Source: Odiellus spinosus (Eukaryota > Arthropoda > Arachnida > Opiliones > Phalangiidae). Taken from it: a DNA stretch of 64,000 nt. How positions within the stretch are numbered: the first letter of the stretch is position 1; each line of letters begins with the position of its first letter. Below the pieces are notes generated by a model that made no database searches, had not been told where the DNA came from, and worked only from the letters and a program-made list of their open reading frames with translations. Below, in pieces: positions 28,415 to 57,933 of this stretch. The stretch spans positions 16,455,434 through 16,519,433 of the forward strand of contig OY987227.1 in NCBI GenBank assembly GCA_963920705.1, given 5' to 3'. The translations under genes and the position numbers were made by a program.

Positions 28415-28449
28415 TGAATTATCATTGTTACTTCCTTTTTTTTTTTTTT

Positions 28450-32741: not shown

Positions 32742-33383
32742 ATGAGAGAAGGCAGTACTCCGGGGAGAATGCCCGTTGAGACGATGATAGCGCATCATCA
32801 GAACGGTTTCTCGGCCGCTGACGAGCGTGGCTTCGAAAACAGCAAGAATATGCAGCATCAAATGGCGCATTCTTCGGCCGTACCCAGCCGGCGACCAGTG
32901 ACTTTGACCCTGTCCGCCGAAGATTGCAGGCTGACCAATCGCGAATCCGGGAGCGTCGTCCTAGGAGTACTTATGGTCGACGAACGCGGGATCGGTACTT
33001 TGCGCAATGGCGATGACTTTAAAAACTTTAACGAAAGATTGTGCACCCCGGTCGTATTGGGATCCGTTTTACTCGAAAAAAGAATATCGTTCAGTTTGGT
33101 TTTGGCTGAAGAACTTAGAAATCGAATTCTCAAACAAGTGCCGTCCTTATCCGGGAACTTTTGCTTTTTAACGAAGAACGGGTATGTGTTATATAATTTA
33201 CTTTTCATTGCTCTTTCTCTATCTCTTCTTTGGGGCGTAATGTATACACGATGGTCGCGTTTAAGAACCAATTTGAGTCACAGTCACTCGAGACCAGGTC
33301 ACCAGGTGGTAACAATAGCTACGAAATTTGTTTTCGCAAAAAGATTTACTACGAAAGTTCTTGTTTTTTTTTTTTGCGACCTT

Positions 33384-33417
<34 letters not shown>

Positions 33418-36400
33418 ATTAATTGCCCCTGAAATTCCTCAGTGAATATTAGCCAATAGCCTGTTCCACCTTTCTACATTACGATCAGAGAGATAACGCG
33501 GATGGTGTGACTTTGCACGTGAAATAGGTCTATTTTTCCATGTTTCTCTATAGTTGCCTATCTGGAAACTTTAACATTTTCCGTAGAAAACAGGTGTTAT
33601 TGCGTTAAATTCTACTGTTTCCAAGGTTGGTTTCTTGTATAGCAACTTTTAAAACCGTTTGGTGAAGGTCTATAGTTGTAATATGATCTGTGAAGATCAT
33701 TTGTCGAAAGTGGAATTATTAACTTGAAAAGTTTTCAGCAGAGTTTAAAATCGGTAATTTACACGGTAAATTACCAGGGTAATGGTAATGCTCAGATAAA
33801 ATTACCAAAAATTGTATTAAACGTTTTAAATCGTTATACAACTTTACTTTTCAATTAATGAACTATCTATGGAAAGTAAAATGGCCAAGCGTATCATGAT
33901 CATGAAAAACATTGCATTTCTCACGAGTGTGGGAGTTTTTTTTAGTCAGAAATAAGAATTTTGAAGAGTTTGAAAGAGAAATTCCGAATTTAAAAATCAC
34001 AGAAACATCTTGAATATACGATCTGAACATTCAAAACGGTTCCAAAGTAAAGGCGCGTTTTGAATCAAGATTGTTTTAAATAAAAATCAAGTTATCTCGT
34101 CAAAACAAAGATGAAGCTTAAATCAAGCTTTTTCATTTAACACGCGTTAATAGATTTCAACTGACAGAGAGGCGGATGTTAAATGAATTTGATACAAGCT
34201 AATTCTCTTGGAAAAGCGAAATCAAAAACTTGATTGAAAACGGTCTTTGTAAGGAATTAAAGGTATAACGAAGACAAAAAACATCATATTTTAATAGCCA
34301 ATGATCTTCAAAATATGCATATACACATATTAAAATTCACCAAAGGTTTCTCGTTAATTTACAGTTACTTATCAAAGTTATTATTAACCTCCGATAAGCC
34401 TAGCTTCATTTTAAGATTAGGAAAAATGTAATCTGTAGCCAATCAAAACGCGTCTTAAACTTTCGCGCGTGAAAATTTTAACACGTTCTTTGACTATCAT
34501 CAGATTTTCTTATCTATGATTTTATTAACTCGTATTCTTGTTAATTAACCTTAAATTAACGAGAAGCATTTCATTTCTTGATATTTATGCATTTTGTAAG
34601 CTGGGTGGTTTGATATAATTTTTTTTTTTTTTTTTTTTTAATTATATAGAATTAAATCAAATCAATTTATTTTATCTGAAAGTTTTAATTTGAATCTATT
34701 TTGCTTTTGGATCTTTTCAAAGATTACTTTGAAAATAATAATGGTTGAAATTGCAGTTCTAGTATCTTTTTAAATAAAAATTTTAAATATCCAAAACAAA
34801 TTAGATTTAAATTTAAATTTATTTGATTATTTTTTTATAAAAACTAAACGCAATCTAGCTTGATTTTAACGCTCTTAATGAATAACATTTTAATCGTCTT
34901 CATTATCCCTTTTCTAAAAGTGATTATGTTCATTAAACTCGAAATTATCTTAAGAAATTGATTTGAAATAATCAAAAAACTAATTTTAATTATATTCTAA
35001 TGTGAACTTAGATAAATTTACCCGGTTGAAAATCCTAAGGTGGGTGTCCATCCATTATATTTTAAATCGTTTGGAATGTAAACCCGTTTCAACTTGCATA
35101 ACACCAGCGTGAAAATTGCAATAAATTGGCCGTATCCCCTTGATAGACATTATTTTCACCTAAATTACAATAGTTTAGTGGGGAATAAATTATACAGTGC
35201 TATTAATATTCTACATTTACTACACTTTTACTTAAAACGTAAAAATCGCGATCTAATTAGGGGTTTACGACCTACAAAAGGAAAAGTGTCGGAAAAACTA
35301 GTTTTATAAACTATAAAAGGGCAAATCCCACGAACATTTAAGGTAATTTTATTGTTATTTCAAGAAAGTTCTGTCTATGAAAATTTGAAAATTAATTTAC
35401 CTGGGGTTCTAGTTATGAAATTTAATCAATTTAATTTAAATAATTTGTAATATCCATAAAATCCACTATCTGAAGTCTTTCAATTCCTTATCTAAGTTTA
35501 AGAAAAAATTGTTTTTTCTTTATTTTCTAAAATACGCTTGATAATAACTTATTAAAAGATCTAAAGCTCGCCCGCCAATCGAGTGATAAAAGAGCGCTTT
35601 ATTGCGTCATTTAAACGTTTACGGATTGGCTTTCTTCTCAACTGAAGCGATAATTTCAAATCTAGCAGTGGAATCTTGTTTAGTCTACTTTTGGAACGAG
35701 TTAAAATTAATTTATAACATAGTATTTGTTTTTATTACTGGTGAATTATCCTTATTTTTATTTTAATTGTAAGGAATCGATAGATTATCACTTTGAAAAT
35801 ACTAAACTTTCATTTTAAATACCTATTATCTTCGAACTTTAAAAGTCCAAATTTTTAACCTTAAAATTTCAAAATTTTAACTTAATTATAAAAAAGTTTA
35901 AAATTTAACTTTAAAAGCTTAAAATTGATCTTTAAAAGTTTAAATTTTAACTTTAAAAGTTGGAATTTTAACTTTAAAAGTTCTAATTTTAACTTTAAAA
36001 ATTGTAATTTTAACTTTAGAAGTTCGAATTTTAACTTTAAAAGTTTAAAATTTATCTTTAAAAGTTTAAAATTTAACTTTAAAAAGTTTAAAATTTAACT
36101 TTAAAAAGTTTAAAATTTAACTTTAAAATTTAACTTTAAAATTTAACTTTAAAAGTTTAAAATTTAACTTTAAAAGTTTAAATTTTAACTTTAAAAGTTT
36201 CAAATCTAACTTTAAAAGTCCAAATTTTAAAATAATTATCTTTGAAAAATCTTGAAATAGTTGTTAGTGGCTTCATATTTCGTGAGACTTGTTCCTAGGC
36301 ACCCAAATATAGCTAAGCCTACCTCCGGATTTTTAAAACAAAAAAATAACAACCGCAAAAACTGGTTTTAAATTTACGTGAATTATTTCTTTTCCTTCCT

Positions 36401-39400
36401 TTTCTTCGCATGATCGAATAAGGGGGACAATTTTAATTCTATTTCCCATTATTATAATTAAAAGAGACATTAATAATACGAGTTATGAAGTATTATGTAG
36501 TATTATACATTCCTCTGACAATCGAATGACAGGGCATTTAAAGTTCAGATTATAGATATATTTTTGATTAGATTTAGATTTAACTCTGATTATATTACGT
36601 TTGAGTACAGGTTTTTATTTTATAAAATAATTGGGATCATATATGACTTAATAATAATATAATAATGTACAGGCGAATGGATACCGCGTAATTTTTACTG
36701 TAATTAAATTTCATAAGTGACGTTACACTCCTTATAACATTTATCATTTTTTAAAGGGATGGTGAAAAGCAAAAGTTTTATTTATTATGTTTATTACATT
36801 TATTTTTAATTCTTACTCGTAAAAGGTTTAACGAGTTTCATCAGAATGGTGTCTAAGTAGTTTTAGACCGTATTTAATTTCAAAAAACAGGGAGCAGAAG
36901 ATTAGCCTTCTTCAAAAATTTGATTACTTAATTCATGGGCCAAGAAACGTGATACCAGGACATGACTTTTCTTAAAAAACCCGTCTCCTATCTGTAACAC
37001 GCGTCTACTATCGCCGCCTTTTGACAAAAGCACGAAACTTCGGAACTACGTCACTTTAGGTACAAATATAAAGGTCACGTGATAGGGTATATTTTATAAA
37101 TTTTAAACCGTCGTCTGCAAAAACGGAAATTCCGTCAGATTTTTGTACCCAATTTCCTTCCCTCCCCCTACCATTTCACCCCCATCACGAGCGTCGCCCG
37201 TTACAATTAGTGTCCGTCTGGGTTTGTACGTACGAAGCTGCGGCTGTTATGTCCTGGTATCACGTTTCTTGGCCCATGCTTAATTGAAGACCTTTCTTTT
37301 TTCGAAATTAAATGCAGTCTCAAACTATTGTTTGTATCTTTATTCCTATTCTACTCCAAGACTGTCACGTCAGTGTCCTCGCCTTTTAATGTGTTTTTCT
37401 TGTTTATTTTAATTAAGATTAAATTGGAGGAGTTACCATGGGATTAATTAAATATTTGCCGCCTTACACGTGGAAAGGCTAGAATATGACGTCACGCGTA
37501 ACCTTCCGCTTTTCACTTTCCCTTTAGAAACAATATTTAAGTATTAAGTAACATCGTAACCATGGTATATATAAATAGAAATTTTAGGGTTGGGCGTGTG
37601 GTTTTTACAGTGTTTTTGCATTTAGGAATGTGATTTTTTTTTTTTTTTTTTTTTTAGAAAAAAGTGTGGTAGAGGCCTTTCCGGTGTTTTAGGGCATAAC
37701 CAACTTGTCACTATAAATGACTCACTGCTGTTCAAAAAAATATATTGTCGTGGTTTCCTGCGTGAGTCTAGTCATTCAAAAATAGCTAAGCGTACAATAG
37801 AGATAGAATTATTGTCACATAAACTGAAGAAACCTTAATCGTAAAAAAATTCCCTCGAGTTACGTAGATACCCAAATATTTGATCTAAATTTACCGCCCT
37901 CCTATTAACATATTTTTGGATTAAAGGTCACATTAAAGCTACAAGATCTTGAATTTTTAATCATTTTAATGAGTTTCAAAGAATTGTTTTGAATATATAA
38001 TTTTATTTTAATTTTTAATATTAAAATTATTAACGAAGGTGAAATACAAATTTATTTAACTTTTATTTAAGAGAATGGTTTTAAAACCACTTTTTTGAGG
38101 TTTTAAATGGTTCACTTAAATAAATGTAAATTAAATTAAATTTATTATAAAAAATAATTTTAATTTATATTCTTATTTTATAATTCCTATAAAAGAATAC
38201 TCGACCAATCAGAGCATGTTTTTCTCAATTTTAAACCCCCTTAAACCTATATTTGATCGAATTACTCGTTTATCATCCCCTAAGATCGTTGGTATATACC
38301 TAGAATCTATGACGTCAATTTGACCTCTCCTTCAGGGTATCGGTACTATTAGTCACTCTAACCTAGGAGAATTTTATAAAAAAAAAGGCAGAGAAATACC
38401 CTAACATTTCTAACTTAAAATTCAAAATCCCAGGTGAATAGCGAACCCTAAATATGGAGGTTTCAGGATACTCTGACCATTGTTAGTACGTCACGATTTT
38501 AGACTAACGTCACTCCTAGCCTTTCTACGCTCCTATGTCTGGTAGTCTACTGAATGACCAACCTTAAAAATGTCGAGTCATGGGACGGACAAAAGGCCCC
38601 TGGGAAAAAGCGAGTATTGTTATCTAGTTTGAAAATAAAGTTTAGAAAGTATCCAAATCTAAAATTTATAGGATAAAAATCTAAAAAATTACAAAATCAA
38701 AATATAAAAATTAAAGGATAAAAATTTAGAAATTATAGGATAAAAATCTAAAAATTATAGAATAAAAATCTAAAAATTAGAGAATCAAAATCTAAAAATT
38801 GTAGAATCAAAATCTAAAAATTGTAGGATTAAAATTTAAAAATTATAGGATAAAATCTAATAATTATCGGATAAAAATCTATAAATTATAGGAGCAAAAT
38901 ACATTATTATAGTATTTAATATATAGAATCAAATTTTGAATTGAAATTAAAAATATTTAATTTAATCATAATTTTTAATATGAAATTTATAATAAGATGA
39001 ATCAGATTGGTTCAGAAAGATATAATAATTATCTTTCGAGTTTCAAGAACTAAGAGGGGAAAATAATGCTTATCTATATTTTAGGTACTGAACCCAAAAA
39101 CAGTGAACTTGGGGGAAATATTGGAATTACATATCTATAGATACTACAGGATCGCCTTGAAGTTATTGTAATAATATGATCATTGGGAAACCCATACCTA
39201 AATAATTTTCTTTTCTACGGAAGCGAGTCCTTTAATGTATCCCTACGCCTTAACATTATTCGCAGTATATACGCACTATTTTCAAAGTTAATCAAATATA
39301 TCCATCTTGTAGATTAACTTTAAAAGCCAAAATACCAAAAATTAAGGGCGTTACCCCTTTTACTTTCAGAAAGTGGGAATTTATTTCGATAAACCAATTT

Positions 39401-42400
39401 TAATAGTTATCATTTTAAAGTGTCATATTTGATGACAAGCCACCCAAGTCTTTGCTCATATATAGCCTAGTATACGAGATAATTTCGAGCCCACGTAATG
39501 TTAGACGATTTAATGATTGTATACGAATCAAGGTTATATTAAAAAAAAAAAGGCATAATATGAACACCCTTTAAAATTATTTAAGAGACGCTCTCTTGAT
39601 TATAAATTAACATTAATTAGGTCCGGTTACGTATGTAGTAAAGCCCGTGAGTATAAACTAAATGGCTAACCCAATTGAGCGGCCCTTTTTTATACAAATT
39701 TTTATTTCGCGCCTTTTTTTTTTTTTTTTTTTTTTGGGTCTCCCGCGCTTCTAATTATAATTTAGGACTTCTTAGAATGTTCAACCCCCTTTTTCTAAGC
39801 GAACTAACAGAGGGAATCTTCCTTCACACGTGATATGAAAGAAAAGCGCGGCTTAAGTTCTTATTATCGCGTTTCAAGGTTCTCCAGTCTAAGTTTTGAA
39901 TTAAAGCTGGCCTTACGCCCATGTACATTCGATATAAACCTCTAAACTTCAAGGGATAGTAAACTTATTGTATTTAAAATTTACTTATGATTCGTTAACT
40001 ATGTAAAAAATAAGAAAATTCTTCAATATCACCCTAATTAAAGACACAAATATCGTTATCTATATACACTAATTAGAATTTAATATAATTATTGAACTCC
40101 CAAAAATTATGTTATAATAATTAGGCTTAACAACTCTTGGAAATTTGATCTTAATTAGGCTTAGCAACACTACGAAAATGTGATCATAATTCGGCTTAGC
40201 AACTCTCAGGAATTTTATCATATTTAGGCTTAACAACTATCATAAATTTGATCATAATTAGACTTATCAACTTTCAGAAATTTAATGATAATTAGGCTTA
40301 GCAACTCTCAGAAATTTAATCATAATTAGGCTTAGCAAGACTCAGATTTAGGTTTAACAGCCCTAGGAATTTATAATCCTTATCAAGCCTTAAAAATCTA
40401 ATCAACTTGACATTATAATTAACAACTGTTGAACTTTGTCCCAAATTTTTAGGGCTGCCACAAATTTTCCTTTTTTTTTTATTATGGCCTTTTAAAAACA
40501 TATACTAACTATAAATGATAACATTAAGTCATTTTTACATGTTTACGCTATTTTGAACATTGATATTTTGTTCCAATTTTCATATTTCGTGACCTGTGGC
40601 AACCCTAAATTGTTATTATGTTATTAAATAATTTCACGCTTCATACAGCCTTTAAATTGCATCGATCAAGGTCTAGCACAATCGTAATTCCGCCCCATTA
40701 CTATTTTTCATATCTGCTGTTTACATTTTTACGCTTAATTAAGGTTTCTTGTATGTAACTAAATAACAATTTTCGCTGACATTAAAGTGCAATATAATTT
40801 TATCATTTTAAAGTTTTGTTTACGCGCTTTGCCTTAAAAAATACTTGATCCAAAACTATTATCTGCATCAAATCAAGCATCGCTTTTAAGATTTTTCCTA
40901 TTTTCTATACAAAGTTTATTTTTAGCAAGGTGAGTTTCCCCAACTTTCCCAGCTGTAGTTGCTAACCATGATCCGAATCAGGTTTAATTTTAAAACGAGT
41001 GAAAAGGTATTCTACCTTACTTCCCTGTGAAAAATATTATAGGGATAAATGGGCTCTAGGTTTGTTAACGCTCAAAACTCGGACTGATTTTTCACCTCTC
41101 TCTCTTCCAAGTTTTCACTGGCTTGGAAAAACCCTCAACCTTTTTATTTATTTTTTTATTATTTTTTTGGGCTTTTCTCCATGAAGGACGAAATAAAAAG
41201 AGAGGATCAGTTTAAGAGTTTAACACGTTCAAACCTAGAGTCTATCGGAAAGAGGCGTACCTAGGTATTTAATCTCATTCTGAAACTTTAAATTTTGGCC
41301 TGAGGATGGTTTTAGCGAGGGATTGAAAAAAATGCGAGCGTTGGGACTTGGGAGGGGTTAATTGAGATCTTGTACATATAGTGATAAAATCTAAATTATA
41401 TATTGTATCCGGTGGGACCCGAGGGGAAAAATGCATCGGAATGACGGAAAATATTATGCTTTTATAATCGAAATTCAACAGGTTTATTTCTTGAAGTGAG
41501 AGGGAATTTATAATGAGGTTCAGTCGCGTATTGCAACGGGATCTCAATCGTATAGATATACACTATGAAGTTAATCTTTGTACCCGCTACAATAAAGCAT
41601 TGAATCTTAACCTTATAATACCACGTGTCTGACGTTGTTAAAGTGCGTCAATGAAAATAACCACCCAGATTGATAATCTAAACACTTAGCGGGAAAGTAA
41701 AGATAACCTCCTTTATGCACTCTTGCATCTTACGAAAATTTACGAGTGTTTTATGGCCGCCACTTTTCTCATTTTTTCCCTGCCTGGAGAAATTACCCTT
41801 TTACAGCCCATATCAAGGATAGTGAATATTTCCAGTTATTCCGGTAAAAACAAAAGGATTGTGTTGTTTTTAATAAAAGCAGGGGCTTGATTACTTTACC
41901 CCCCCCCCCCCAATTAAGATGGGTTTGGGGTCATTAGGGCTTTGTGAGTTCAGAAAACAAAAAATCTACGATCAGCTGAATTTTGATATCGACATTGTTC
42001 TTAACTTAACCCAACATCTAATTTATTCTATGGGATTTTAACATGGAAATTTAAAATTTCAAATACGTTTTTCTCAAACTATCGTTGGTCGTAGATTTTT
42101 TTAAATATTTTTTTGCAACTTCACACGTTTCAATTAATTTGGTTTTTAATTAATAGCCATCGTTATTTGGTGGTGGGGTCTGTTAACGGAACTAAAACAG
42201 CTATCGTTTTGTTCTTTGATATCCGCAAATAATAGATTTTGGACCAAAACAATGACATGACGAGATTTTTATTCAGATTTGTCTGAATATTTAATCTCGT
42301 AAGAGTGAGATAAAGTTGATATAAAGTAGTCTTGCAGTAAGAAAGGTTGAACATTTCTATTCAATGGTAAAATCATCTTCAATATGCCTAGACTTCACAA

Positions 42401-45400
42401 CTTTGTCACACATTCCCATACCTTAATCGCTTTACCAAATGGGCTATAAAATAAATTGAACTTACATCATAAACCTTGAATTTTGTTAACCAGTTGAGAT
42501 TATCCATTTGGGGTATAATTCCGTAAAACACCAGTCCATAATCACCATAAGAATAATTGTACTAGGCCTAGGCCTATATGTCGACAATCGAAACCGATTA
42601 CGGGCGCGCAAAACTTCATTGTCACGTGATGTCGCGATTTCCGGGTCGGCGAACGCGTTCTCTCCCCGATCTCGATATAGCAATCATAGCCCATATAGCC
42701 GAGGCTTAACGCGCTTGTCAAAAGTTCCGATACTCATAATCGCATAAATATTTTATACTAGAGTAAAAAATTGTTCGTAATTGTTACCTTAACTCTTCTA
42801 ATCCAGTTAAATTGATAAATTCAGTGATATAACACTTCAAAAGCTCGATCAAACTTGTACACATTACGGGAGTCCTGGATAGAGTTCTCAAATTGAACAC
42901 TTTGAGTTTTAACTGAGTGACTGTCTGACTGACCGTTATAAGGTAAGGAGAATAAACATTGGGATATGAATAGGTAATTTGAAGTATAATGTATTTAATC
43001 TTGTAAGTTCAGCGATGTAAGATCTCTGGGTCACAATTTTTATCGAGATGACTTTTACATTTCTGATAAAACTTCAAAACTTTTTTAGTGTTAAATAAAA
43101 TCATTTTACTTAGGAGAATATATATGAATAGGTTGAATGTCAGTGAGATACGCATAATGACGTCATATAAGCCTTTCTCTCTTTCTTCCGCTCTGTTGCC
43201 TCTAAGAATATTTCAGTCCTTCGGAATAAATTATTTCACAAATTATTATTATAATCAGTAATTCATATATAAATTTTATGAATTCTTGTTATAAAATTCT
43301 TGTAGATAAAATTATTCCGCCAGTAGTAATTCAATTAATAAGCTTATATCGTCGTTTTTATTAAATATTTATTAGTTTATTGACTTTTAAGTGTTTATGA
43401 ACAAGTATTTTGGTTTTCAGTATTATTTTGTCATTCATATTGAGAGTAATATCACATAGTTATAAAGAAGTTATCCGATCATTTTGGCACGAGACTCTAG
43501 AGTTGTGACAATATGAAAGTAAATATTGTTTCATTTAATTACTTCCATTATTAGCCCCATTTATGCATTGTGTTATTTAAAAGAAAAATCTGAAATTATA
43601 TTCAATGCATTTTATATTCACAATATAAAAGCGTGCTGTAATTTTCAACATACCAATTTTAATTTATGCGCCACGAAGTTCGAATTATAAGCTACGTTCA
43701 CACTAGAAATTTGAAACCGATTTCAAACCTTTTCGAATGTACAAATCTATTTTTACAGTTAATAATTCCGTTTTTAATTGACCACAAAATTATTCATATT
43801 GACCTTTCCAAAACGGTCTTTAGTGTGAACTGTAAAAATGTGGTTTAAATCGATATTTTGGTATAATATTAACTCTGAGTAAAGTAAAGGGAAGACACAT
43901 TTTCAGTGGTTCCAAATGGTTGACTACGTGTTTCCGTAAATAACCGGATAATCATGGGAAAATTAATAAAAAAAATATATTTAAAACCGGATAGCCTAGT
44001 GCGTGCGTAAATTCATGCCTGGTTGAAGACGTAGATGATAGACCTAAAATACAATATATAAATTAATTTTGCTAAATAAATTTTGAAGGCAAAACGTTAG
44101 GCAGGAATATCATTCCATTGTTTTCATTTTAACTCGGATATGCTCTCTTCTACGTTTACTCTCGAAATGTCATTCTCCACATTTTTAAAACGTTTAAATT
44201 TCCCGAGGGGTTGATCAGTACACTTAGTACTTATTTATCATTGTCAAAAGCTGCAGTCAGTTACGTAATCGCGAAGTTTGAGGTCTGGGTTTGGACAAGA
44301 TAATATCTGTTTGTTTTATCTTTATTCATAATTTGAAATTATACACTGGAAGTCTATGATAAATGCAATGTAATCGCGAATATTCAACTGATTATTATTA
44401 ATAATTAAGTGATTAATGATATATTTATGGTTATCTTGTCCAAACCCGACCTCTATCGTGAAGTCTGTGTACGGATTTTACCCTTCGACATTTCCCGCGT
44501 AAAACCCGGGGTTTTTACGGTTTTAATGCCGCTTTTTATAGTTTTTCGAGAGCACTTGTTACAATCTACTTTATACCCTATCAGGTTTTATATTGAATAT
44601 TAGTCCGCCTCGTATTTATTAGTTTTGTTAACACATTTTTAACAAACATATAATAGATAAAATCGTCGCAACAACGCGTAACCTCACGTACAAAAATATC
44701 TCTATCACTTCCTGCACATTCTTTCGTTGATGTTATTACATTTTTGCGTGGGATTCAGTCAAACATTTCATTTTCTTTTTGTTTAATTGATAAAATAACA
44801 GGGTTCATGCAGCTTACGTACGTTCAAATAAGACTTTTAAATCAGCTGGGTTTTTTTACCGAAAGTTTCAGTCTAGATGGAAATGGTATTACCGAAGTTA
44901 TTACGCAAGAGAGTTAAAGAACGTATCCATCTCAAACTCATCTAAGGATTAATCCAAAGTTATTAAGGGAATATATTATTCCAAGGACGATTAGAGGATA
45001 ACACGTAATTTCTAGGAAGGATCAGGAACCGTTAGGTTATCTCCGTGAAAATAGCTCAGTTAATGCTAAATACATGCTCAGTTATTACGCAATCACTTTA
45101 GTACAGTTAAATTTACACGCTTGTTCACCAATTACATGGAGTGATTAGCCTCGTGGTTACGTAATATAGTTGAAGAAAACACTGTCTTTATTATCCTTTT
45201 AAAAATTCGTTTATACCTCACGTATTTGTGATTTGAGGGTATGTATTTGATTCTATGTTAATCCAAAAATAGATTTCAATAAAACTTGTCCTTTAGTTAT
45301 ATCACTATATTATATAAATAGGAACATGTATCTAGGACAGTAGCCGGATTTAAATTTTGTATATTTGAAGAGTAAAAAAAAAGGGATTAGATGAGATTTC

Positions 45401-48400
45401 ATCTCCTGATATATACTTTTTATATTATTTCAATATTCAAGACTTTATCTTGTATCCATACACGTAAAAACACCATGCTTATTTTACTTCTATGAAATAT
45501 TTCAAATGAAAACAAACGAGTTGTGGTGATTGTAAAAGACGTCTTCTATGGTACATGTTCTTTAATAAAATTTATAATCACTTCACGTATCAACTAATGG
45601 TTTCAGCTGTATATAGTCGAACAAAAATTTAGTTAGGCATGTCACGTACCACTTCGCTTTTGGTTTTGACTTAAAAATATTTAAAAAAAAATCAGATATC
45701 ACGAGTTTTTCTATAAAATATTACCCATCACTTATATGGAAATATGCAAAATCTTTCGTCGGAAAATTTCATAGGTTTTCTGGTAGCCTATGATTTAAAC
45801 TAGTAACCAATCAAAACTACGCCCTAGATTGATTAAAAGGCAAGCTACATTACAGGAGTAGAGGCCCAGCTCATATTTCTAATTAATAAAATGCGTAAAT
45901 GTTAATTATCATTAAAAAATACAAATTAATATTTATTTAATCTTGTATTTAATGATAATACCGTTGATTTAATATCAAATATTTATGCGGTTACGTTAGG
46001 AAACGAGCCTACAATCTTTTGATTCCATTTCTACAATTTTTATAATAAAACTCCAAATTTCATTAAAAAAAAGTAATGGTTTTGGTGATTAATAATCTAT
46101 TGTATTAATTGCTTTAATTCAATCTCGAACAATTAATAATATTAACATTTGGGTGTTTTGGAATTAAGTGTTGTTTTGCGTGGGAATATGATCAATTAAC
46201 ATATTTGAAGGGTTCGGTCACTAAGTAGGTAGACCAGACGAAAATTGCGCAAGAGATGAAATTATGTTGAAGGAAAATAGTTTTCAACTTTTTTCTCCTT
46301 ACGTATAGGGGTCTGTGATTATGATGAAACGTTTCAGGAACTAGACAAATTTTTACAATAACTATTTACGGAGTTAAACCTAATTTTGCTTCGTATTTAA
46401 ATTGAAGTGCTTACGTTAATTTCGTGGGTGAAAGCAATTATTGCGACACATCATTTCGTTCTAAATGATTTTGATTGTAGTAATGACGTAACAAATAAGA
46501 TTATACGCTAATATAGTTTAGATTTTAAGTTCTAGATCTTGAGTTCGTAGATAACAATCCGGACGCGGTTTTAAATGTTTTTACAAAAGTAAACGGAAGT
46601 CGAATTATCTTTCCAACGTCAGTTGTTTTTGCGCGTCAACAAACTCGAAGTTCACGGTCTTTTGATTAAAAAAATAAAATAAAAAATGCTGTGATTTAAT
46701 GAAATACTCAATGCCATTTATTTATTTATTAAGGTACTAAGATTAACAAGATATTTTAAGTTTAATCCAATTGAAATTCTTCTAAGATTAAAATAATTTA
46801 ATAGGATATTTTAATTCGTAGTATATCAAATATATTGAATATATTTTTTGCATTTAAATTTTGAATATTTGATATCTTAAAAACGTATCAACCCAGATCT
46901 AGGTTTTAATTTCGTATTTTAGTTTTAAATAGGATGATAGAGATTAAAATATAATGCATATATCTTCTAAAATCTTCACAGCTAAATCCAAAACATTTCC
47001 TAATACATTATTATTTGTATCATTTCCGTTTGAATCACATAAAATAATTGAGTAAACTCAATTTGTCATAATTAAGTATGATACTGCAAAATTACAGTTC
47101 TCTTATGCTATAATCATGCAATATAAGAAGTCAATTTAAAGAGTCTTCCAGCTTTTAGCTATAGTGGTCTCGAGTCAAAGTGACTTAAATTAAAAAAAAT
47201 ATTTCTTGATTATAATTAGACTCATTTGTGTTTTTATTGTTTTATAGAATCCGAAACTCTAAACCTAAATCCTGTTTTCTTTTGTTTCTCTATATAGATG
47301 GCCGATATCGAAAGACCAAGAAAAGCAGGTACCCATCGATCAAATCGTAAACGAACAGTACGCCGTCATATTACGAAAACAATTCGGTAAGTTACGTCAC
47401 GCTTAAATTATTTAGTTTGAAAAAAATGTAGTTTGCAAAATTATTTTTATCCTTATGAAGTATTAATCCGCCTTAGCTTTGTAAACTGATATTGAGAAAT
47501 ATTTTTGAAATTCCGAAACTATAAACGCAATATGTTCTTTGTTTTTACAGAAAAAACGAGGGTGGGAGTTATAGCTGACGAAAAAGAGCATCTAGGTTTC
47601 ATATTCATCGAATTAAATTCGAGTCTGAGACAAGTTCGGGACGCTATTGGCGAACAGGTAAATTTTATTCTGACCAATAACAATGTTATTCGTATTATGC
47701 AAGGGTGCTCTAAGATTTCTAAGTAATTGAATACAATTTAGAATCTCGTTTTTGTATCTTTCTTCGTAGATACATTTTATAGTTTTGATAACTACTTAAA
47801 AACGAAGTTTTCCTTTATCTGTATTGATATATGATAGAGGCGGTCTTAACTTTGTGGATTACTATAGAAAGAATTGGTTTGAAATTTCATCACGTACCAA
47901 TCTAAACTCCTCTTATGGCTGTGATTTGTTCTCTATGAAATAAGAGCGAGACCATCTATGTACGTGTTGAAAAGTCAATATAATTCTACGTACTCATAAT
48001 TAATGTGCTCAATCAGGGATGAAAAAAATGTCACGTTTAAAGGTAAAATGAAGTCCGAATCTCCAATTTACCGTGTTAAGCCTAAATCACAAAAGAGGCA
48101 AAATTTTATTTATAGGGAGAATGCTTTTTATCGATTTCTTACCTAATTGACTGGTAAAAAGATTTATAAGCCAAATTTATTAAATTAGAAACCCATTTTT
48201 AATTTAACACTGAAAGTAAGCTTCACAAACAGAAGTAAATGAGAAAAGTATATGCATTCCCCCTAACTAGTGTGCGCCTCTTAAGCCTAGTTTGAATAAT
48301 TTTACTGTTGAAATAAAGCGCTTGTCTGGTAGAAGACTGGTAGAAGAATGTTTTTAACGATAATGAATCGATAGAAAATCTATTGATATCTTAATTCGAT

Positions 48401-51400
48401 ATTCATTCTCCATTTAAAAAGCCTAACATATTATGTGGATCATTTCGCTTTTAAAGAATTCGATACGATCTGTGTAATATCGCTGCAGGCGCTTATTCTT
48501 TTTTAATATTAATTATTATAATAAAATGATGAGTCAGTGAAAGGTATAGAGGATTCCAGTCTGCGTTTTACAGTTCATTCAATACTAAAGAGATAGCTCT
48601 AATATGATTGGCGAGGTAGAGATACGTGGTAGGCGACGGACTACCGACAGTTCATACCCACCATTGCTGTATTATCTTCGTGTTAAAATGGACTATAATC
48701 TTTTGCCCATCCAAATCGGTTTGGATTCAATGGAAAAGATGGAAAGGAATGCTTAATATTTTGTACCGTATGATGTAATCATTACGGTATTTATTATTTT
48801 TCTGTGGCGGCGCCGATTAGTCGCGAAGGGAATTTACAAGAATATTTTGTTACGATAAGGGGACGATTACCCCTCCTAATTTTATGATTCAACGTTCAAG
48901 TGTTTGGTATTAAAATTTTAAACTTGGGAACGATTTTTTAATTAACTCTATATAGCTTGAGAATATAGTTTTAGAGTTACCAACTTACGTAATTTGGATT
49001 AGCAACATTCGTAACAAAATAATTCGATGATCATCTGATAAATTTAGACTTCCCAACTTTCGTAACGAGATAATTTTATTATCTTCAGTAAATTTTGTTA
49101 CAGCAGAGAAAAATATCTCTTTCAACAAGATAATTATCAGTATTATCGGATTAGGCTATAGGCTTAACAACATGGTTCATTTTAAAGCATTTACATAAAG
49201 AGGATTAGGATTAGCCCATGAGAAAAATTTTAATTATATTGTTTAAATTTAATATTGTTTAAATTCGGTTAACAACAAAAAGAAAAATCGTCTGCTAACG
49301 CTCGTGTGACGTCTTGTTACCTAATGCAATCCAGCGTTGATTTTACAGGACATTTGTTAGACTTATTGGCCTGAGTTTTATATTCCCTTTAAGAGGATTA
49401 GGATTATTAAACCTCATATAGTGAAGAAAGTATTCCATTCAAAATCTCCTTGATCACGAGTTTTGTTGGTTTTTAAATATCCCCGGAAGGTTGTTAGTAA
49501 TTTTCGTGTGATTTTTTATCATGTTAGAGTACTTCCCTGATTTTATCCTCATAATCACAAATCACGTGTGATTCTAGTCTGATCACGAACATATTTTTTG
49601 TTTGTTTGAAGAAAAAGAAGAAATATACTGTTCATTTCCCCTTTGACTTAATAGTACAGATAGTATTTTCTGTTTCGCAACAAGTTATTTCTAACGTCTC
49701 GGCGAAATAATCGATCTTATCTTAGAGGATGCTTTTTTTCTAGCTTCTATTATTAATGTTTTATTGACGCAATTGTTTTGGGTTGGGCTTCTAGGGAGGA
49801 GATGGAAGGGATCTTAGCAGAAAAAAATTGTTAATTCCTTCGCCATAATTATTAATTTGTTTGATTAGGAAATATGTAGCTAAAATTTCGAGAATTTTCG
49901 CCCCAGTAGTTGGAAATTGCTATAGCACGTACAAAGCAGACCTTCCATTTATTTATTTATTTATTACCGCCTAACTTTGTACGTGCTGAAAGCTGAAACT
50001 GATTCTTTCTACTTTCCTAGAATATGATATAAAATTACACTAGGAATGCCCGTCTCTTCATAGAGCTTAGCCCTAACTCATAGAACCCGTCCTGGGTGGG
50101 GTTTCGAGCTCGCTTCGAGGCTGAACGTGGAGTGGCGTAACCCTAAACGGGCTCCTTGATAAAAAGCTTTATAAATCCAGATATTTTGGGTATTCTATTA
50201 TATTCTAATGAGTGAAGCATTGGTAGCAGATTTAGTGGAAACTATCCGTTATGCCCTTGTGTCTATTTGCTATAAAATTTAGTCCAAATAGATATAGAAT
50301 AGTATTTTGAGCTTGTATATATATAAGGATAATATTTATTAGATGAATGGCTTTCACTGTCTTTTTTAGCTTTCCAATTGCAATGTTTAAAATAATGTTT
50401 ATTTTAGAGTAATCACTTTGGTATCTGTAGTGAACTAAGCATTTTTCGAAGAAAAGTATCTGGCGATATTTTGAAATTTTCTTCATATTTGAGGACTTAA
50501 ACCCACGTGTATAGCAGTGTTCTCGTGATGGAAAACCCAAAAGTGAAACCTTAGATTAAAAATTATTATTTAAAGTAATTTACAATAAGAAGGACGTTAG
50601 GGCGAAATTTTTCTTCTTAATACCAAGAATATGATTATTTCACTAATGCCCATGGCAGCTGAAAAAATGTTCATCAATGAATCCGTCTATAGGTTGCATG
50701 ATGATCCACAAGTTTTAAAGAGATATAGGCCAATCAGGTGCTTCGACACAGACATTTTATCGCGAGTTCGAAACCCCACCCACGATGGATAGACGGAAAT
50801 TTCAAGTGTAATTGAATATAAATCATATTCTTGGTAATAACACGAGTATCTTCATCATTAAGTCCATTTCTTATTGGTCTATATGATGAACTTGGAATTC
50901 CTCTGAACATTTATCAAATTACGTAATCGACTTGAATTTTCGGAACGTGCAAAAGTATCCCTTTAATTATCTCTGCGAATCTCGTTCTTAATATTATTAC
51001 ATGTAGTAAAGGCAAGAGGGAACCAAAATATTTTATTAAGACACCAAATCATGGATTAAGGAATGACCTATCATGATAGTTTTGCTCGAACTGAAAATTC
51101 TAACTGATTCTGACTAGAATTTGTTTACGATAAGTGCGATAGTGGCGCAAGTGCACCGAGAAGCCAAAAAAATCAACACATGAGCTTCACGGAGGTCTGG
51201 TTTTAATTTAAATTCGATGTTCTTCAGTTGTCGGTATTTTTCGGTATCCTCTTAATTAAAGATCAAAAAAGATTGACAGATTATAATACATAGAGGAATT
51301 TAGTGATTTCCGTTAAAAGCACTCGAGTCAAAACTATAATATCACGTGGCTTTTGAATGAAAAATGTAGAGAGAGAATATTCCCCTTTCAAATCGCGTTG

Positions 51401-54400
51401 TTTTTCGATTGTTACCACGAAACAAAATCTTGATAACCTTCAACATTTTTTCGAGATTAAAATGAAATTTTACTATACCTATACCCTCTTCATTTTGGAG
51501 ATTACACGTTTGTAGTATGTTTAAATACTCAACTATATCTCTCAGACCGTGTTCACACTAACACTAAAGGCTAAAAACCCCTTACAAGTACTTATTTCTA
51601 GTCTAAGGTAACATTGAATATCATATTCTATAAAAACTTGTCGTGTCAGGTTTACAAAAAGTTCAAGGGTAATGGGTATAGGGTCCTCTACGTATCAAGC
51701 GATGATAAAGCCAACTTGTATCTTGCATGTGTTATACCGAAACATCGCTTTTTCAACTTAAGGGTCAAATTTACAACATCCCATTTTATTGAAACTATTT
51801 TTTTGGCATAACTTTTGATCTACCAATTATAATTAGTTTTAGTTATGGGAACTGGAGGTATAATTAACTGGCATCGAAGGTTAAGGATGATATTAAGTCC
51901 AAAGCGTTTAGCTAATGAAGCCTAAAAAATGCAATATCTTCATAGCTAAGCCCAAAGACACGAATAGTTTAGAAGTTTGATCACGAAGTCTAAAATGCGA
52001 AATATTTATTTTCTCGTTTACAGTTGAAAGAAAACAAACTTTTAGTAAGGAATGAATTCAAGTTTATCGAGAAGATGGGCTTCCCGGTCACCAGTCAACA
52101 AGAAAATCTTCTAACGGTGGCGGACGCCATGACGAATAGTACCCTCCTAGTTCAAACTCTCGTATCCTCGCCCTTGTACGAACCATCTTTAGCCCACCCG
52201 AATTCACTCAGCCCACCCTTCAGCAGAGTTACTCCGTCGAGAAGAGGCTCTCCAGTCTTCGCGACGCTATCTCTTCCACCGTCCGTGGACGAAACTGACC
52301 CGCCTAGAATAACACCCACGCTCAGAGAGATTAAGGAGAAGAAGAAATCGTTCTTTTCGTAAGTTTCAAAGCCCCGCAAACGTGTCCGAATAACAACCTT
52401 AGAAGAAAGTAGATCTATCTCGAGAAAGGCATCGTTAAGTGCGTTTTTAGTCTGGTTATAATTATTGTAACCTATTGGTGTATGTTGCGACTCGGATTAG
52501 TGATGAACCGAAGATTATTCCGTACCGTGAACCAATCATTGTCGCGCACCGTTTAATAATTTGTTGTCGATTATGTTGTGGGGCCTTATGTTTGTTCCGC
52601 TTTTATTTCACGCATTTTATATTACCATAATTAGCTATCTCGCCAACATCGCTTTTTGCTTGTTATTTGTATACTTCTTTGATTGCTTAAAATTTGAATA
52701 AAATCAAATAAAATTAAAACAAAAACCTTATATTTTTTATCTTTTTTCGTCCTTGTAGAAGGAACGAGCACAAAGGCCATGTCGCGTCTTCATTGGGACT
52801 GGTCGCTAAGCCTATTTTAATCAGTTACGTTAGAGCCGAAGCTGCCCAACACGCTCTAACGCTCAAAGAAGAGCTTTATAATCTGGGCTTTAGCGTGTAT
52901 CTGGTAAGTTTAGTTTTTGCCGTAAAATATCATCCCAAGATAAGTCTTTTTAACATGAACTGTTGATTTAAAGAACACATTTTTGACTTATTGCTTATTG
53001 GGTCTAAATTTTTAAAATGGGTCGTAACTTATCTATGCAGGGGCGGGACCTATTTTTATTCTTTCGAGGACATTTAAGGTCAACTATGAACGAAATATAG
53101 CCAAATTACCAAATCTTGAAGGCGAACCGCTTTATTTTGATCCTTGAGTGGTAGATGACTCTTTGGAATGAACTAACTTGGTTAAATTTCTTTAGGACGT
53201 ACACGAAATTAAATCGGGAGCTGACTGGCAAGACTCGCTCAATTTCGCAGTTAGTAATTGCGAAGTCTTTGTTCCCTTGATCACCCCCATGTATGGCAAG
53301 ACACAGTGGACTAACAGAGAGGTCAAGTTAGCTGACGTCCTTAATAAATTTATCATTCCCATCAACTTTATGGACCACTGGCCTCCGGAATGTTTGGCCA
53401 TCCAGTTCGCTTCGACGCAATACATACCTTGGAAACCCCTCGAAAATGATCACAGTAAGAACCAAATATTCTTGGGTCTTGGGGCCGGATTAAGAGGGTA
53501 CGAGTTGGCCTACTGCGCTAAGTTGCGCGGAACAAAGAATTTTGAGTCATTTATACCAACGATCGGCAATTCTCTTAACCCGGTAGAGAGTTACTGGTAC
53601 TGTTTATTAATAACGGTATAATATAGTGAAAGGAATCGACGAATCCAAGTACGCTTCCGACTACCGGGTCTGGGACGTTAAATTCGTCAAGACCGTTTCC
53701 CGCCAAATCGCAACCCGTTTGCTAGCTCAATTAAACATGGTTCCCGATTACACCAACTTCGCGCAAAAAAGGTACCGCTCATTGGCCGCGCCTCCACCTA
53801 GCAGCCCACAAAGAAAAACCGTAAGTTTCCCTCCAACTATAGTAATTTATGTTAGCTTATATGTACCATTTTACAAGTCTCATATTATTTATATAAAGGT
53901 ACGAATGAGCGGCATTGTCGACGACTTGATTGAAATGAAGGACCGCCAAACTCAATTAGTCGTCATTAGCGCGCATCCGAAACAACTCATCTTCGTGAGT
54001 ACCTCTTTTATTATATATTACAAGGAGGATATCAATTGTCCTCGTGACCTCGAACGTAAGCGGGAAAACCAGTCTTAAGTTGAAAATATAATTAAACATA
54101 AAACGAGTGTTTTATAATTTTTATTTTTCTTGCAGGAAAACATTAATTTTACTTTTTTCACTTTCAACAAGGAGAGTATCCTTGTTGAAAGTGAAAAAAA
54201 TAAAACGAGTGGTTTAAACGTTGATAAGGTTGCGGTCACGTAAATCTATTCAAGCTTTATTCGGGTAGAGTGTTTGATTTCCTCGTTTTTCTCTTAAAGG
54301 CCTCGGAAGTCAAAAAAATGTTGGAGGAGATGAACTACCAAGTATGGTGCTCGACCGAGCTTATCGAAGGCGCCCAAGACGGGGATTCCTTCGGAGGATT

Positions 54401-56408
54401 GGCGTCAGCGGGGGCGATTATGCGCGAACTTTCCACCATTCCAGAAGGCGAAACGATTAGACCGTTGGACGAACCTAAACCTTTCGCTTCCATCACCCGC
54501 GGACCTTCGCAACACAAAAAACAGCTGGCGCGCTCCGATTCCAACGAAACGAGCGGTTACGTCGATAAACGAGTTCTAACAAGGCTGAGTTCCCAAATGA
54601 GCACGACTAGCATGGTGTCCGAATCGTTGACCCCGGATAAACTCGATCGACTGAAGAAGTTCCAAGAGAAGGTGGACCAAGCCGGCGTTGTCATAGTCGT
54701 CGCCTCCGAAGCCTTCTTTAAATCGACCACTTCGAGACAACAGGCCTTTTATTGCGAACACCGAAAGAAAATTATCCTGGTTAAATACGACGACAGTTCG
54801 ATCCCCGCGCTGTTCGGCATGTTAATGGGAAATGACATGATAAGCGTAAGTTACTTTCGCTCTTTAGAGTTTATAACAGAATTCAAGATAGAGATTTTGA
54901 ACGAACAGGACCCGCAAGGAGCTCAGTTCAGTTGCGCCTTAAAAGCCAGGGTCAAAAGAGAATTGAACCCGGCCTCTTCCGTCACTCCAAAAGACGCCAC
55001 AATGGAAGCCAAAATGCAGTATCTCGTCAGTTTCATGAAGAAGAACTTACCCGTATTGGAATCTTGCGTTTATGTTTCTGGATCAAGCCGGATGCAAAAC
55101 GAACGATCCAAGGAAATTTGCAAGTAAGTTATATCTGCTTCAACGGGAAGATTGTATTCCGTGATTTAGACGGGAAGGGATAAATTTCCAACTAAATGTC
55201 CGTAGAGAAAATTTCATGGCGCCGGCGTGTATCCGTGTTCAGTGAAAACGGACTTTAATACGGTCTTGGTCCATTTGGCTGCGACAGAGACGAATGCTAA
55301 GGATGTGACAAACGCGGATATAAAATAACCATAAACTAACTTAAGTTTTTTTTTTTTTTTTTTTTTTCAAAAAGGGAAATCGGAAAAGCTTTGGCTAAAG
55401 TCAAGAACATAAACGTAGTAACCGGGGGTTTTTACGGTGCTGGTGACATCACGGCTCGCGCTTTCGAAGAGGCGTTACAGAACAATCCCCGCTCGCCCGT
55501 AACACCCAGTCCAACCACTCCTGGACCCATCTTTCACATTCTACCCGTGAAGGACACGAAGGACTTCACGACGAAAGCGACCCAGAACGAGGAAGGAAGC
55601 TTTGAACCGGTAGAATACGGAAACACTCTCTTTCTCGGCGATTCCGTAAAAGAAAGGGAATCCGTCGTCGCCAGATTATTCGACATTTGCATCGTGATAG
55701 AAGGAGGACCGGGTGCGGCCCACGAAGTCGAGGAATTCATATGGAACGACCATTACGTCATTCCTATCATTTCAACCGGCGGTGCCGCTGGTGGAGATTT
55801 TGGTGTTCCCTATAAGATTTTCGAAGTAAGTTCGCTTTGTATATATAGGTATAGTTTATCCATAGCTATTTTTTTTTGGACGGAAAACGCGCGTCTGCCA
55901 ATCGATTTAGCAACAAAGCAATATGTTTATTTTCCGCATGGTTGCTTTATTTAATTTTAATTTAACGGTAATCATATCTGAATGATTTAATTTTTTCTAG
56001 ACTCCGCCGAACGTTCTAGAAGATGATTGGACTGTGTTATCGAGCAAGGAAGCATCACCAACCGAAGTTGCCCAAGCGGTCGTCAAAATCGTTATCGCTT
56101 TGAAGACGGCGATCGCTAACCACGTTATGAAACAAAATCAAGATAAGAAGGAGAAATCGATGGGCAAAATTAACCGCAAAAGATCAAAGAAAAGTCGAAA
56201 ATTAACGCGTAATAATAGAGACGTTAAAGCCATTAGCCAATCGAAAAATTCCACCGAATTCCCTTTGGTGGTCAAATCAGAGAGTTTGGAAGCTAACGAC
56301 CAACTGATAACGGATGGAGACCAAACCTTACATATCCCTGGACATACGAATAGATGGCAAAAAATTGTCAAGTATTTGAGGCCTACTTGTCTCCCGGCGC
56401 AGCCCTAA
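32742..56408 (+). CDS. UBL-UBL-TIR-pseudoTIR-SLOG protein, 12 exons
   Basis: Exons: 32742-33181, 47298-47386, 47551-47657, 52024-52358, 52759-52903, 53196-53454, 53627-53820, 53899-53994, 54300-54845, 54909-55123, 55375-55825, 56001-56408. They sum to 3285 nt with compatible phases (1094 aa). Residues 1-50 look disordered. Two related ubiquitin-like repeats share FxF[LI]xKxG[WF]P[IV][ST]xxQE at 140-155 and 224-239. A Ser/Pro linker follows. TIR1 covers about 342-455: box 1 PILISY, then W410-x-x-x-E414 at the position of the SARM1 catalytic glutamate. TIR2 covers about 540-730, with a roughly 90-residue insertion and Gln at the aligned catalytic site. A SLOG domain spans about 788-945, with VSGSS, VTGGFYGAGD (824-833) and EGGPGAAHE (918-926). 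A lysine/arginine-rich tail lies at about 1000-1035. TIR enzymes cleave NAD and SLOG folds bind nucleotide ligands; the joint role is inferred. The start is the first in-frame ATG after a stop; an upstream coding exon is not excluded. Intron 1 is 14.1 kb. Confidence 0.9.
35845..36235 (+). repeat. AACTTTAAAAGTTTAAAATTT minisatellite
   Basis: About 18 units of roughly 20-21 bp (taactttaaaagtttaaaat and variants). The unit contains the palindrome actttaaaagt. It lies in intron 1 of the TIR-SLOG gene. Confidence 0.9.
36755..37525. repeat. Fold-back interrupted by a second element
   Basis: Outer arms aaagggatggtgaaaagc (about 36755) and its complement near 37510-37528, plus tagaccgtatttaatttc (about 36863) and its complement near 37300-37320, pair. 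The centre has been invaded by the element at 36934-37278. Confidence 0.75.
36934..37278. mobile_element. 345-bp non-autonomous DNA transposon, 7-bp TSD
   Basis: Perfect inverted ends of about 30 bp beginning catgggccaagaaacgtgat, with CTTAATT duplicated on both sides (36927-36933 and 37279-37285). No coding capacity. Identical ends suggest recent insertion into the older fold-back around it. Confidence 0.9.
38690..38900 (+). repeat. AATCTAAAAATTATAGGATAAA minisatellite
   Basis: About ten units of 21-22 bp in intron 1 of the TIR-SLOG gene. Confidence 0.9.
40090..40345 (+). repeat. About 36-bp tandem repeat, seven units
   Basis: Units with ttaggcttagcaactctcag and aaatttaatcataa diverge by a few bases each. 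There is no conserved-repeat/unique-spacer pattern. Confidence 0.9.
40451..40606. mobile_element. Element with AGGGYTGCCACA ends, copy 2
   Basis: Starts agggctgccacaaatttt and ends gacctgtggcaaccct. A short internally deleted relative of 28055-28414. Confidence 0.75.
43690..43832. mobile_element. MITE of the TTCACACTAG family, copy 4
   Basis: Left end ctacgttcacactagaaatt and right end ggtctttagtgtgaac pair. It lies in intron 1 of the TIR-SLOG gene. Confidence 0.8.
44264..44470. repeat. Fold-back with 24-bp arms
   Basis: gaggtctgggtttggacaag (44280) pairs with cttgtccaaacccgacctc (ends 44453) with one mismatch. The flanking bases pair weakly. Confidence 0.8.
50017..50115 (-). mobile_element. 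SINE-like copy with B-box motif
   Basis: Read on the minus strand it has GCGAGCTCGAAACCCC (close to the RNA polymerase III B box GWTCRANNC), followed by about 75 bp ending agtgtaattttatatcatat. The same order is found at 50761-50840 on the plus strand. The 5' part is not conserved between the copies. Confidence 0.5.
50761..50840 (+). mobile_element. SINE-like copy with B-box motif
   Basis: GCGAGTTCGAAACCCC is followed by a tail ending in agtgtaattgaatataaatc then atattcttgg. An inverted piece of this tail (taccaagaatatgatt) lies about 200 bp upstream near 50621, so the region may form a fold-back. Confidence 0.5.
54153..54199. repeat. Perfect 21-bp stem hairpin in intron 8
   Basis: A near-perfect inverted repeat (left arm 54153-54173, 5-nt loop GAGTA, right arm 54179-54199) lies in the 305-nt intron 8 of the TIR-SLOG gene. 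Short direct repeats around AAAACGAGTG flank it at about 54100 and 54203. The exact arms suggest a recent template-switch or inverted-duplication event. Confidence 0.85.
54846..54908 (+). other. 63-nt intron 10 without stop codon
   Basis: GTAAGT at 54846 and CAG at 54906-54908 bound 63 nt. This is a multiple of three with no in-frame stop, so unspliced RNA would add 21 residues between TIR2 and SLOG without a frameshift. I call it an intron because the donor is consensus-like and because 63 nt also occurs as an intron length in the ARL10-like gene. Retention is equally compatible with the reading frame. Confidence 0.6.
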
Positions 56409-57504: not shown

Positions 57505-57897
57505 TCATTGCTTTTGCGCTTCCTGCTCTTTTTTAAGAAGTCGTCTTTCTTTTGCCTTGGCGGCGAGTTTGGTTACTAAGTCCATTAATTTATTCGGGTC
57601 CCACATTTCGGTCCATTTTTGCATGTCCAAACCTTTCATGATAGACATAATTTTGGATGGATCCATCGACGACATCATTCCGGTTATTGATTGGGACATT
57701 TTCTTAAAATCCATTGTTTTAGCAAACGTTGATATTTGATCAGCTCCTGGCACATTAAATTTCTTTAGAATTTGGGGAATGTCCGCTCCACCGTCGACCA
57801 TCTTCTTAATGTTTTCGGGTGTGAACATTTTGGATATGTCTTGCCCAACGGCTATTCCGACCCCCAGAACCAGAACTAAACGCAAAAGGATCCCCAT
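57505..57897 (-). CDS. Small secreted Met-rich protein, single exon
   Basis: An intact 130-codon reading frame on the minus strand. It begins with a clear signal peptide (MGILLRLVLVLGVGIAVGQ, cleavage likely after G18 or Q19). The mature part of about 111 residues is rich in Met, Lys and Asp, with regularly spaced amphipathic segments (MFTPENIKKMVDG, MDFKKMSQSITGMMSSMD, IMSIMKGLDMQKWTEMWD) and a highly basic, helical C-terminus. There are no cysteines, so it is not a disulphide-rich peptide. I do not recognise the family. A TATA box, a short leader and two poly(A) signals sit at expected distances, which supports a real and perhaps strongly expressed secreted product. It is convergent with the TIR-SLOG gene and divergent from the ARL10-like gene. 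Confidence 0.75.
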   Translation of the reverse strand: MGILLRLVLVLGVGIAVGQDISKMFTPENIKKMVDGGADIPQILKKFNVPGADQISTFAKTMDFKKMSQSITGMMSSMDPSKIMSIMKGLDMQKWTEMWDPNKLMDLVTKLAAKAKERRLLKKEQEAQKQ

Positions 57898-57933
57898 CTT
57901 TCAATTGGAATAAAGCTATACCCTTCTCAATCT

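Follow-up and report, generated by a model that had tools for sequence, protein, structure and literature searches.

Can a single animal protein both produce and sense a messenger derived from nicotinamide adenine dinucleotide (NAD+)? This question is raised by a gene of the opilionid Odiellus spinosus, which lies at positions 32742-56408 of a 64,000-nucleotide stretch of DNA, hereafter the window (GenBank assembly GCA_963920705.1, contig OY987227.1, positions 16,455,434 to 16,519,433), and whose predicted product carries a TIR domain followed by a C-terminal SLOG domain. NAD derivatives made by TIR domains have an established role as alarm signals in both bacteria and plants, and in the bacterial antiviral system Thoeris the TIR protein ThsB produces an isomer of cyclic ADP-ribose (cADPR) that is sensed by the SIR2-SLOG protein ThsA. 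The analysis reported here points to a family of animal proteins, apparently uncharacterised so far and present in many phyla, in which the domains of the two Thoeris functions are joined in a single chain.

The gene, as rebuilt from open reading frames and splice sites, consists of 12 exons on the plus strand, and its predicted product of 1,094 amino acids (aa) is organized as two N-terminal repeats, a first TIR domain (TIR1, aa ~340-515), a second TIR-like domain (TIR2, aa ~535-755), the SLOG domain (aa ~788-985), and a basic, variable tail. The exon start phases (0-2-1-0-2-0-1-0-0-0-2-0) are all consistent along the chain, the 11 introns are all of the GT-AG type, the reading contains no internal stop, and the TAA terminator ends at 56408. 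The original prediction, a model's note made from the sequence alone, had proposed twelve phase-consistent exons, with which both the coordinates and the count agree, and had placed the main motifs where they are found here (PILISY at aa 342, WTNRE at 410-414, VSGSS at 793, VTGGFYGAGD at 824, and EGGPGAAHE at 918); the degenerate TIR2 between TIR1 and SLOG and the two N-terminal repeats are additions to that description. A reading in which the TIR and SLOG exons belong to separate genes was rejected as the main one, since one-chain relatives in many phyla carry both domains. In the same line, two homologues of 1,049 and 1,050 aa (P0002 and P0004) have their entire coding sequence on contigs of 3,430 and 4,266 bases, respectively, which are too short for such an intron-rich gene and therefore probably represent transcripts holding TIR and SLOG together.

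TIR1 reaches 74.8 bits against the Pfam profile TIR_2 (cut-off 28), which places it in the TIR superfamily, and the open frame of exon 6 by itself matches this profile at 1.2e-8. Its best solved relative in terms of sequence is the TIR domain of SARM1 (2.5e-5), whose WVHKE aligns with the WTNRE of the window protein (53307-53321, aa 410-414), with Glu414 as the predicted catalytic residue. In alignment A2, made of 68 proteins selected by hand among the 120 listed of 186 matches, the Ser-Tyr of box 1, the Asp-Trp of DWQD, and the W, T, N, and R of WTNRE are invariant, while the Glu of WTNRE is present in 67 of the 68. Over a wider set of 200 proteins, Glu occupies the WxxxE place in 174 of the 176 rows that are not gapped there (counted by protein, such a row exists for 174 of 175), while the 23 gapped rows out of 199, of which many are partial proteins or pieces of TIR2 that the same profile picked up, were left out; all these conservation counts concern 90%-identity clusters of common ancestry, and hence are not independent events. 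The only two rows without Glu, those of Medioppia (P0001, Asn) and Littorina (P0079, Lys), display an indel exactly at the site and may reflect gene-model faults. Besides, in alignment A1 the models of Nymphon (P0057) and Tegillarca (P0116) lack the same in-frame block of 42 aa, from DVHEI to WTNRE, and with it the BB-loop region and the catalytic-type Glu; exon skipping, which would yield isoforms without catalysis, or annotation faults could explain this gap. Regarding Thoeris itself, the PADLOC ThsB model matches 24 of 26 family members at E values up to 0.1 (6.3e-12 for the window protein), and the NCBIfam model ThcB4, from Thoeris type III, matches 24 of the 26 (4.4e-17 for the window protein), the 62 bits obtained by the window protein, over its TIR part only, not reaching the equivalog cut-off of 220 bits. 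Judging from the conserved Glu at the WxxxE place, TIR1 would be a TIR domain of the NADase type, for which NAD+ cleavage is predicted.

As for the C-terminal domain, the SLOG sequence, taken in isolation, obtains 32.1 bits with the LDcluster4 profile (cut-off 26.3), which assigns it to the SLOG superfamily, this score falling to 25.0 bits, under the cut-off, when a whole 1,115-aa version of the protein is used as query. The SLOG domain of the window protein scores 19.7 bits against STALD (Sir2- and TIR-associating SLOG), and by the cut-off of 24 falls outside this family; the STALD profile matches 12 of 13 SLOG pieces at E up to 1 (best value 8.3e-6), and the ThsA/STALD model matches 10 of the 26 family members at E up to 0.1. 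Two motifs stand out: the glycine loop VTGGFYGAGD (55418-55447, aa 824-833), whose T-G-G-x-x-G is invariant in the 13 rows of the SLOG alignment A3, and the nucleotide-site motif EGGPGAAHE (55700-55726, aa 918-926), which aligns with the EGGPGT of TRPM2 and whose last Glu is kept in 181 of 193 rows, 15 gapped rows out of 208 having been left out of the Arg and Glu counts. A model predicted for the SLOG domain only of a tick homologue (predicted local distance difference test score, pLDDT, of 94.6) finds its best Protein Data Bank (PDB) match in the SLOG domain of BcThsA bound to 3'cADPR. The conserved Arg and Glu are located on helices corresponding to those of the BcThsA pocket (Ser288, Phe357, Arg371, and Glu403), a correspondence drawn at the level of helices. 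Searches of PDB sequences with the whole-family profile, the window SLOG, the SLOG profile A3, a free SLOG protein, and a member with a precomputed STALD label, the last giving no match at all, did not reach ThsA, and the link to ThsA rests on the Pfam and PADLOC profiles and on the predicted fold. Taken together, sequence profiles, conservation, and predicted folds bear out both the TIR domain with WxxxE and the C-terminal SLOG domain of the original prediction.

Other SLOG domains were met along the way. Four proteins of 204-394 aa (P0137, P0139, P0140, and P0141) seemingly hold a SLOG domain of the same type without TIR, and are possibly free-standing relatives. In the O. spinosus genome, the TRPM-type SLOG (LSDAT_euk) matches at 13 other places, on contigs C1, C2, C3 (at 22.09 Mb), C210, and C215, and both SLOG types, TRPM-type and TIR-fused, therefore seem to be present. 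A eukaryotic SLOG outside TRPM is reported in PMC11642885, which describes an LSDAT (SLOG-type) domain in the Tetrahymena ciliary-tip protein SPIKE1.

The remaining parts of the chain are less readily assigned. The N-terminal repeats, of consensus F-FLTK-GWPI---QE and FLD-NGWP----QE--LTV-DIL in the family alignment, from which their profiles match each other with a probability of 99.1 (E 1.9e-18), have no Pfam match, and a beta-grasp (ubiquitin-like) fold is suggested by the succession of strands and helices in the model. For TIR2, the open frame holding exon 9 matches TIR_2 at 5.6e-4 with 20.8 bits, under the cut-off of 28, and the comparison of the TIR1 and TIR2 profiles gives an E value of 2.4e-4 with a probability of only 43.6. 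More precisely, the place of the WxxxE Glu is taken in TIR2 by Gln (sponge Q529 or Q530, depending on the choice of one gap), Gln being found in 55 and 58 and Glu in 5 and 0 of the 68 rows of A2, and none of these rows has a Trp at sponge positions 523-531. With mostly Gln in place of the Glu and no Trp there, TIR2 is likely a pseudo-TIR.

How widely the family is distributed was addressed by protein searches. At E <= 1e-3, 186 relatives were retrieved among the 7,988 scored candidates sharing most words (120 of them listed), while a search from a divergent member gave 105 and one with the SLOG part 21. Within chelicerates, they come from spiders, scorpions, ticks, mites, a pseudoscorpion, horseshoe crabs, and a sea spider; the other named sources are a priapulid, molluscs, annelids, nemerteans, hemichordates, echinoderms, the placozoan Trichoplax, and the sponges Corticium and Oscarella. 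With relatives from sponges to chelicerates, the gene is not a one-off. No insect, crustacean, nematode, cnidarian, or chordate name appears among the matches listed (120 of 186, 21, and 105), absence not having been searched for directly. In a tree of 55 hand-chosen relatives and the window protein (827 columns, root set by us), the latter belongs to a clade in which chelicerates are the only named members (support 0.998, with 0.998 and 0.948 at the nested nodes). The tree otherwise broadly tracks animal relationships, with weak nodes joining hemichordates and echinoderms (0.198), within protostomes (several at 0.009-0.7), and placing the annelid Dimorphilus beside Priapulus (0.688). At least three divergent members are present in both Tachypleus (P0015, P0019, and P0029) and Centruroides (P0003, P0017, and P0069), and one Centruroides copy is placed in a separate clade, alongside a copy of Limulus. 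Given the wide animal distribution and a tree broadly matching animal relationships, we infer that the gene was inherited vertically since an early ancestor of animals. Contamination by bacterial DNA and recent transfer were both rejected in view of the 11 introns, the location of the gene ~16.5 Mb into a large contig (C3) of an assembly of 443 Mb in 286 contigs, and the animal-like tree. Scans for prokaryotic or viral relatives, of a kind that reaches close ones only, confirmed none in prokaryotic contigs of GTDB (31 and 98 matches to the whole-protein and SLOG patterns) and found none in viral contigs (25 pattern matches), and tblastn against plasmids (E up to 1) gave none either.

Returning to the gene model, each exon peptide was compared with 15 chosen homologues and, as a control, with their reversed sequences; all 12 match at least 4 of the 15, with best values ranging from 0.003 (exon 7) to 1.4e-78 (exon 11), the best control value for any exon being 0.007 (exon 9). 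Exon 1 (32742-33181, aa 1-147; 7 of 15, best 5e-7), defined by phase and splice sites, holds the start Met, the variable N-terminus, and most of N-terminal repeat 1, which ends in exon 2 with its GWPI...QE motif (47298-47386, aa 147-177; 13 of 15, 3.3e-5). Repeat 2 starts in exon 3 (47551-47657, aa 177-212; 10 of 15, 1.2e-11) and is completed in exon 4, together with a variable linker (52024-52358, aa 213-324; 12 of 15, 3.8e-6). TIR1 begins in exon 5, which holds PILISYVRAEAA (box 1; 52759-52903, aa 324-372; 15 of 15, 5.2e-25), has its core, with DVHEIK, DWQD, WTNRE, and WPPECLAIQF, in exon 6 (53196-53454, aa 373-459; 15 of 15, 6.8e-71), and ends in exon 7 with its C-terminal helix and a linker (53627-53820, aa 459-523; 4 of 15, 0.003). 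This exon is the weakest of the chain and is supported mainly by position and phase, because its best value is close to that of the reversed control. TIR2 starts in exon 8 (53899-53994, aa 524-555; 11 of 15, 1.6e-6), and exon 9 (54300-54845, aa 556-737; 15 of 15, 9.8e-53) encodes its core, with a long insertion and QQxFYCEHRK where WxxxE is expected. Exon 10 (54909-55123, aa 738-809; 12 of 15, 2.4e-36) carries the end of TIR2 and the first SLOG strand (VYVSGSS), exon 11 (55375-55825, aa 809-959; 15 of 15, 1.4e-78) the bulk of SLOG, and exon 12 (56001-56408, aa 960-1094 and the stop; 13 of 15, 2e-15, over its first 41 aa) the SLOG end, a C-terminal helix, and the basic variable tail. Exons 9 and 10 are separated by 63 in-frame nucleotides (54846-54908), bounded by GT and AG, that would encode 21 aa. 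In alignment A1, where the window protein stands beside 25 other rows, 23 of these have no residue there and 2 have a single one, and the segment is therefore read as an intron; an eleven-exon model of 1,115 aa was rejected for its 21-aa excess over the homologues.

In the surroundings of the gene, Snf7-family exons (8.5e-15 and, under the cut-off, 6.8e-4), which we take to be those of a CHMP7-like gene, lie upstream on the plus strand (17093-18573), and an Arf-family small GTPase match (2.2e-15) lies downstream on the same strand (59415-59873). Just downstream of the gene, the minus strand holds an open frame of 131 aa (57508-57900) with a signal-peptide-like start, MGILLRLVLVLGVGIAVGQ, and no Pfam match. 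The window also contains a tandem duplication at 22850-24772, with a step of 1,088 bases and two pairs of identical open-frame peptides, one per strand, and six tandem-repeat arrays with periods of 15-91 bases (9733-9927, 10077-10343, 28445-28705, 35892-36230, 38655-38900, and 40117-40346), three of which are located in intron 1 of the TIR-SLOG gene.

Does this protein belong to a known system? The comparison with Thoeris is closer than the original prediction could tell, judging from the profile matches of the family to both the ThsB and the ThsA/STALD models: the two kinds of domain, producer and sensor, are there, TIR1 being matched by the ThsB and ThcB4 models and the SLOG-only model being nearest to BcThsA. 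Nevertheless, while Thoeris is a two-gene prokaryotic system in which ThsA bears an effector domain, the animal protein is a single polypeptide encoded by an intron-bearing gene, shows no match to SIR2 or macro domains in the 26 family members at E up to 0.1, scores under the ThcB4 and STALD cut-offs, and adds the degenerate TIR2 and the N-terminal repeats; it is thus not a Thoeris system. SARM1 and TIR-1, the former of ARM-SAM-SAM-TIR architecture, offer the closest solved animal TIR by both sequence and fold, but none of the 26 members matches ARM or SAM at the same threshold, the TIR lies in mid-chain, and the candidate sensor is the C-terminal SLOG, which places the protein outside SARM1. 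The EGGPG motif is common to the animal SLOG and the SLOG-like MHR1/2 of TRPM2, whereas TRPM proteins are channels and no channel family is found among the 14 families matched by the 26 members at E up to 0.1, so the protein is not a TRPM either. The SLOG superfamily fold is shared with LOG and PpnN, phosphoribohydrolases or nucleosidases that have no TIR domain. The family stands outside Thoeris, STALD (by cut-off), SARM1, and TRPM, and a Thoeris-like working may at most be inferred. The matches bear only generic names ('uncharacterized protein', 'hypothetical protein', 'unnamed protein product', 'TIR domain-containing protein', and 'TIR motif-containing protein'), which fits the claim of the original prediction that no named animal protein has this order. 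No description of an animal TIR-SLOG fusion was found in the literature searched, although its TIR may sit among the ecTIR-DC families (Gerdol 2017) and an earlier mention there or in surveys of SLOG domains (Burroughs 2015) is possible.

What would such a protein do? With the precedent of Thoeris, in which one protein makes and another senses a cADPR isomer, the fusion is most economically explained if a single protein cleaves NAD+ to an ADP-ribose-type messenger through TIR1 and binds this messenger with its own SLOG domain, a proposal for which we consider the chances about evenly balanced. In this scheme, a trigger of unspecified nature, perhaps acting via the N-terminal repeats, would gather chains; Glu414 of WTNRE would then, as its conservation suggests, cut NAD+ to ADP-ribose (ADPR) or to a cyclic or glycocyclic form of it; the C-terminal SLOG, given its predicted fold, would bind this product or a close relative; and the ligand would shift the oligomeric state, as 3'cADPR does for ThsA, thereby amplifying, sustaining, or shutting off TIR1, or recruiting a partner. 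TIR2, having lost WxxxE, might serve as a structural partner or pseudoenzyme. This make-and-sense reading is plausible, but must also account for TIR2, for the N-terminal repeats, and for the lack of a recognised SIR2 effector.

That TIR1 is the only recognisable effector in the chain would also suit an NADase whose SLOG domain senses another nucleotide (e.g., ADPR, nicotinamide mononucleotide, AMP, or a foreign cyclic nucleotide) as an allosteric gate, the protein being then a metabolic or infection-triggered executioner depleting NAD+ instead of a messenger device. In SARM1, the closest solved animal TIR, the ARM domain is such a gate, and many nucleotides are bound across the SLOG superfamily, ADPR being bound by TRPM2, which shares EGGPG (according to PMC13143021 for the binding of ADPR). 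The SLOG-only model is nearest to the cADPR-isomer sensor ThsA, not to TRPM2, but fold does not fix the ligand, and we regard this gated NADase as rather unlikely. The fold shared with LOG and PpnN brings to mind a catalytic SLOG, a phosphoribohydrolase or nucleosidase that would act on the TIR1 product and make the protein a two-step enzyme degrading NAD+ or removing the messenger, which we deem improbable. Finally, the protein could lack enzymatic activity and serve innate signalling as a scaffold or adaptor, in the manner of MyD88, with TIR1-TIR2 contacts and SLOG as folded spacers. The absence of WxxxE in TIR2 and its weak matches to the TIR domains of TLR (0.0085) and MyD88 (0.81) would agree with this, as would the role of adaptors or regulators proposed for invertebrate ecTIR-DC proteins in PMC6321704; however, a near-invariant WTNRE and SLOG pocket motifs kept from sponges to chelicerates are hard to square with a pure scaffold, which makes this role very unlikely.

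If the make-and-sense reading is taken to its full extent, the family would be a one-protein Thoeris stemming from an early animal ancestor, in which TIR makes cyclic or glycocyclic ADPR and the fused ThsA-type SLOG receives it, a proposal that we put forward as tentative. According to PMC11025887, SARM1 TIR domains yield small amounts of glycocyclic ADPR (gcADPR), for which a receiver protein is postulated and the SLOG-like domains of TRPM channels are suggested as one place in which to seek it. A deeply conserved animal protein with a producer-type TIR and a sensor-type SLOG is another concrete receiver candidate, and tractable carriers are available among the sea urchin, sea star, hemichordate, placozoan, horseshoe crab, and spider. 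If true, such a system would have escaped attention since it may be missing from the usual models, the named relatives listed comprising no insect, nematode, or vertebrate, and would provide animals with a receiver of TIR-made messengers of the gcADPR type that has been retained in many invertebrates.

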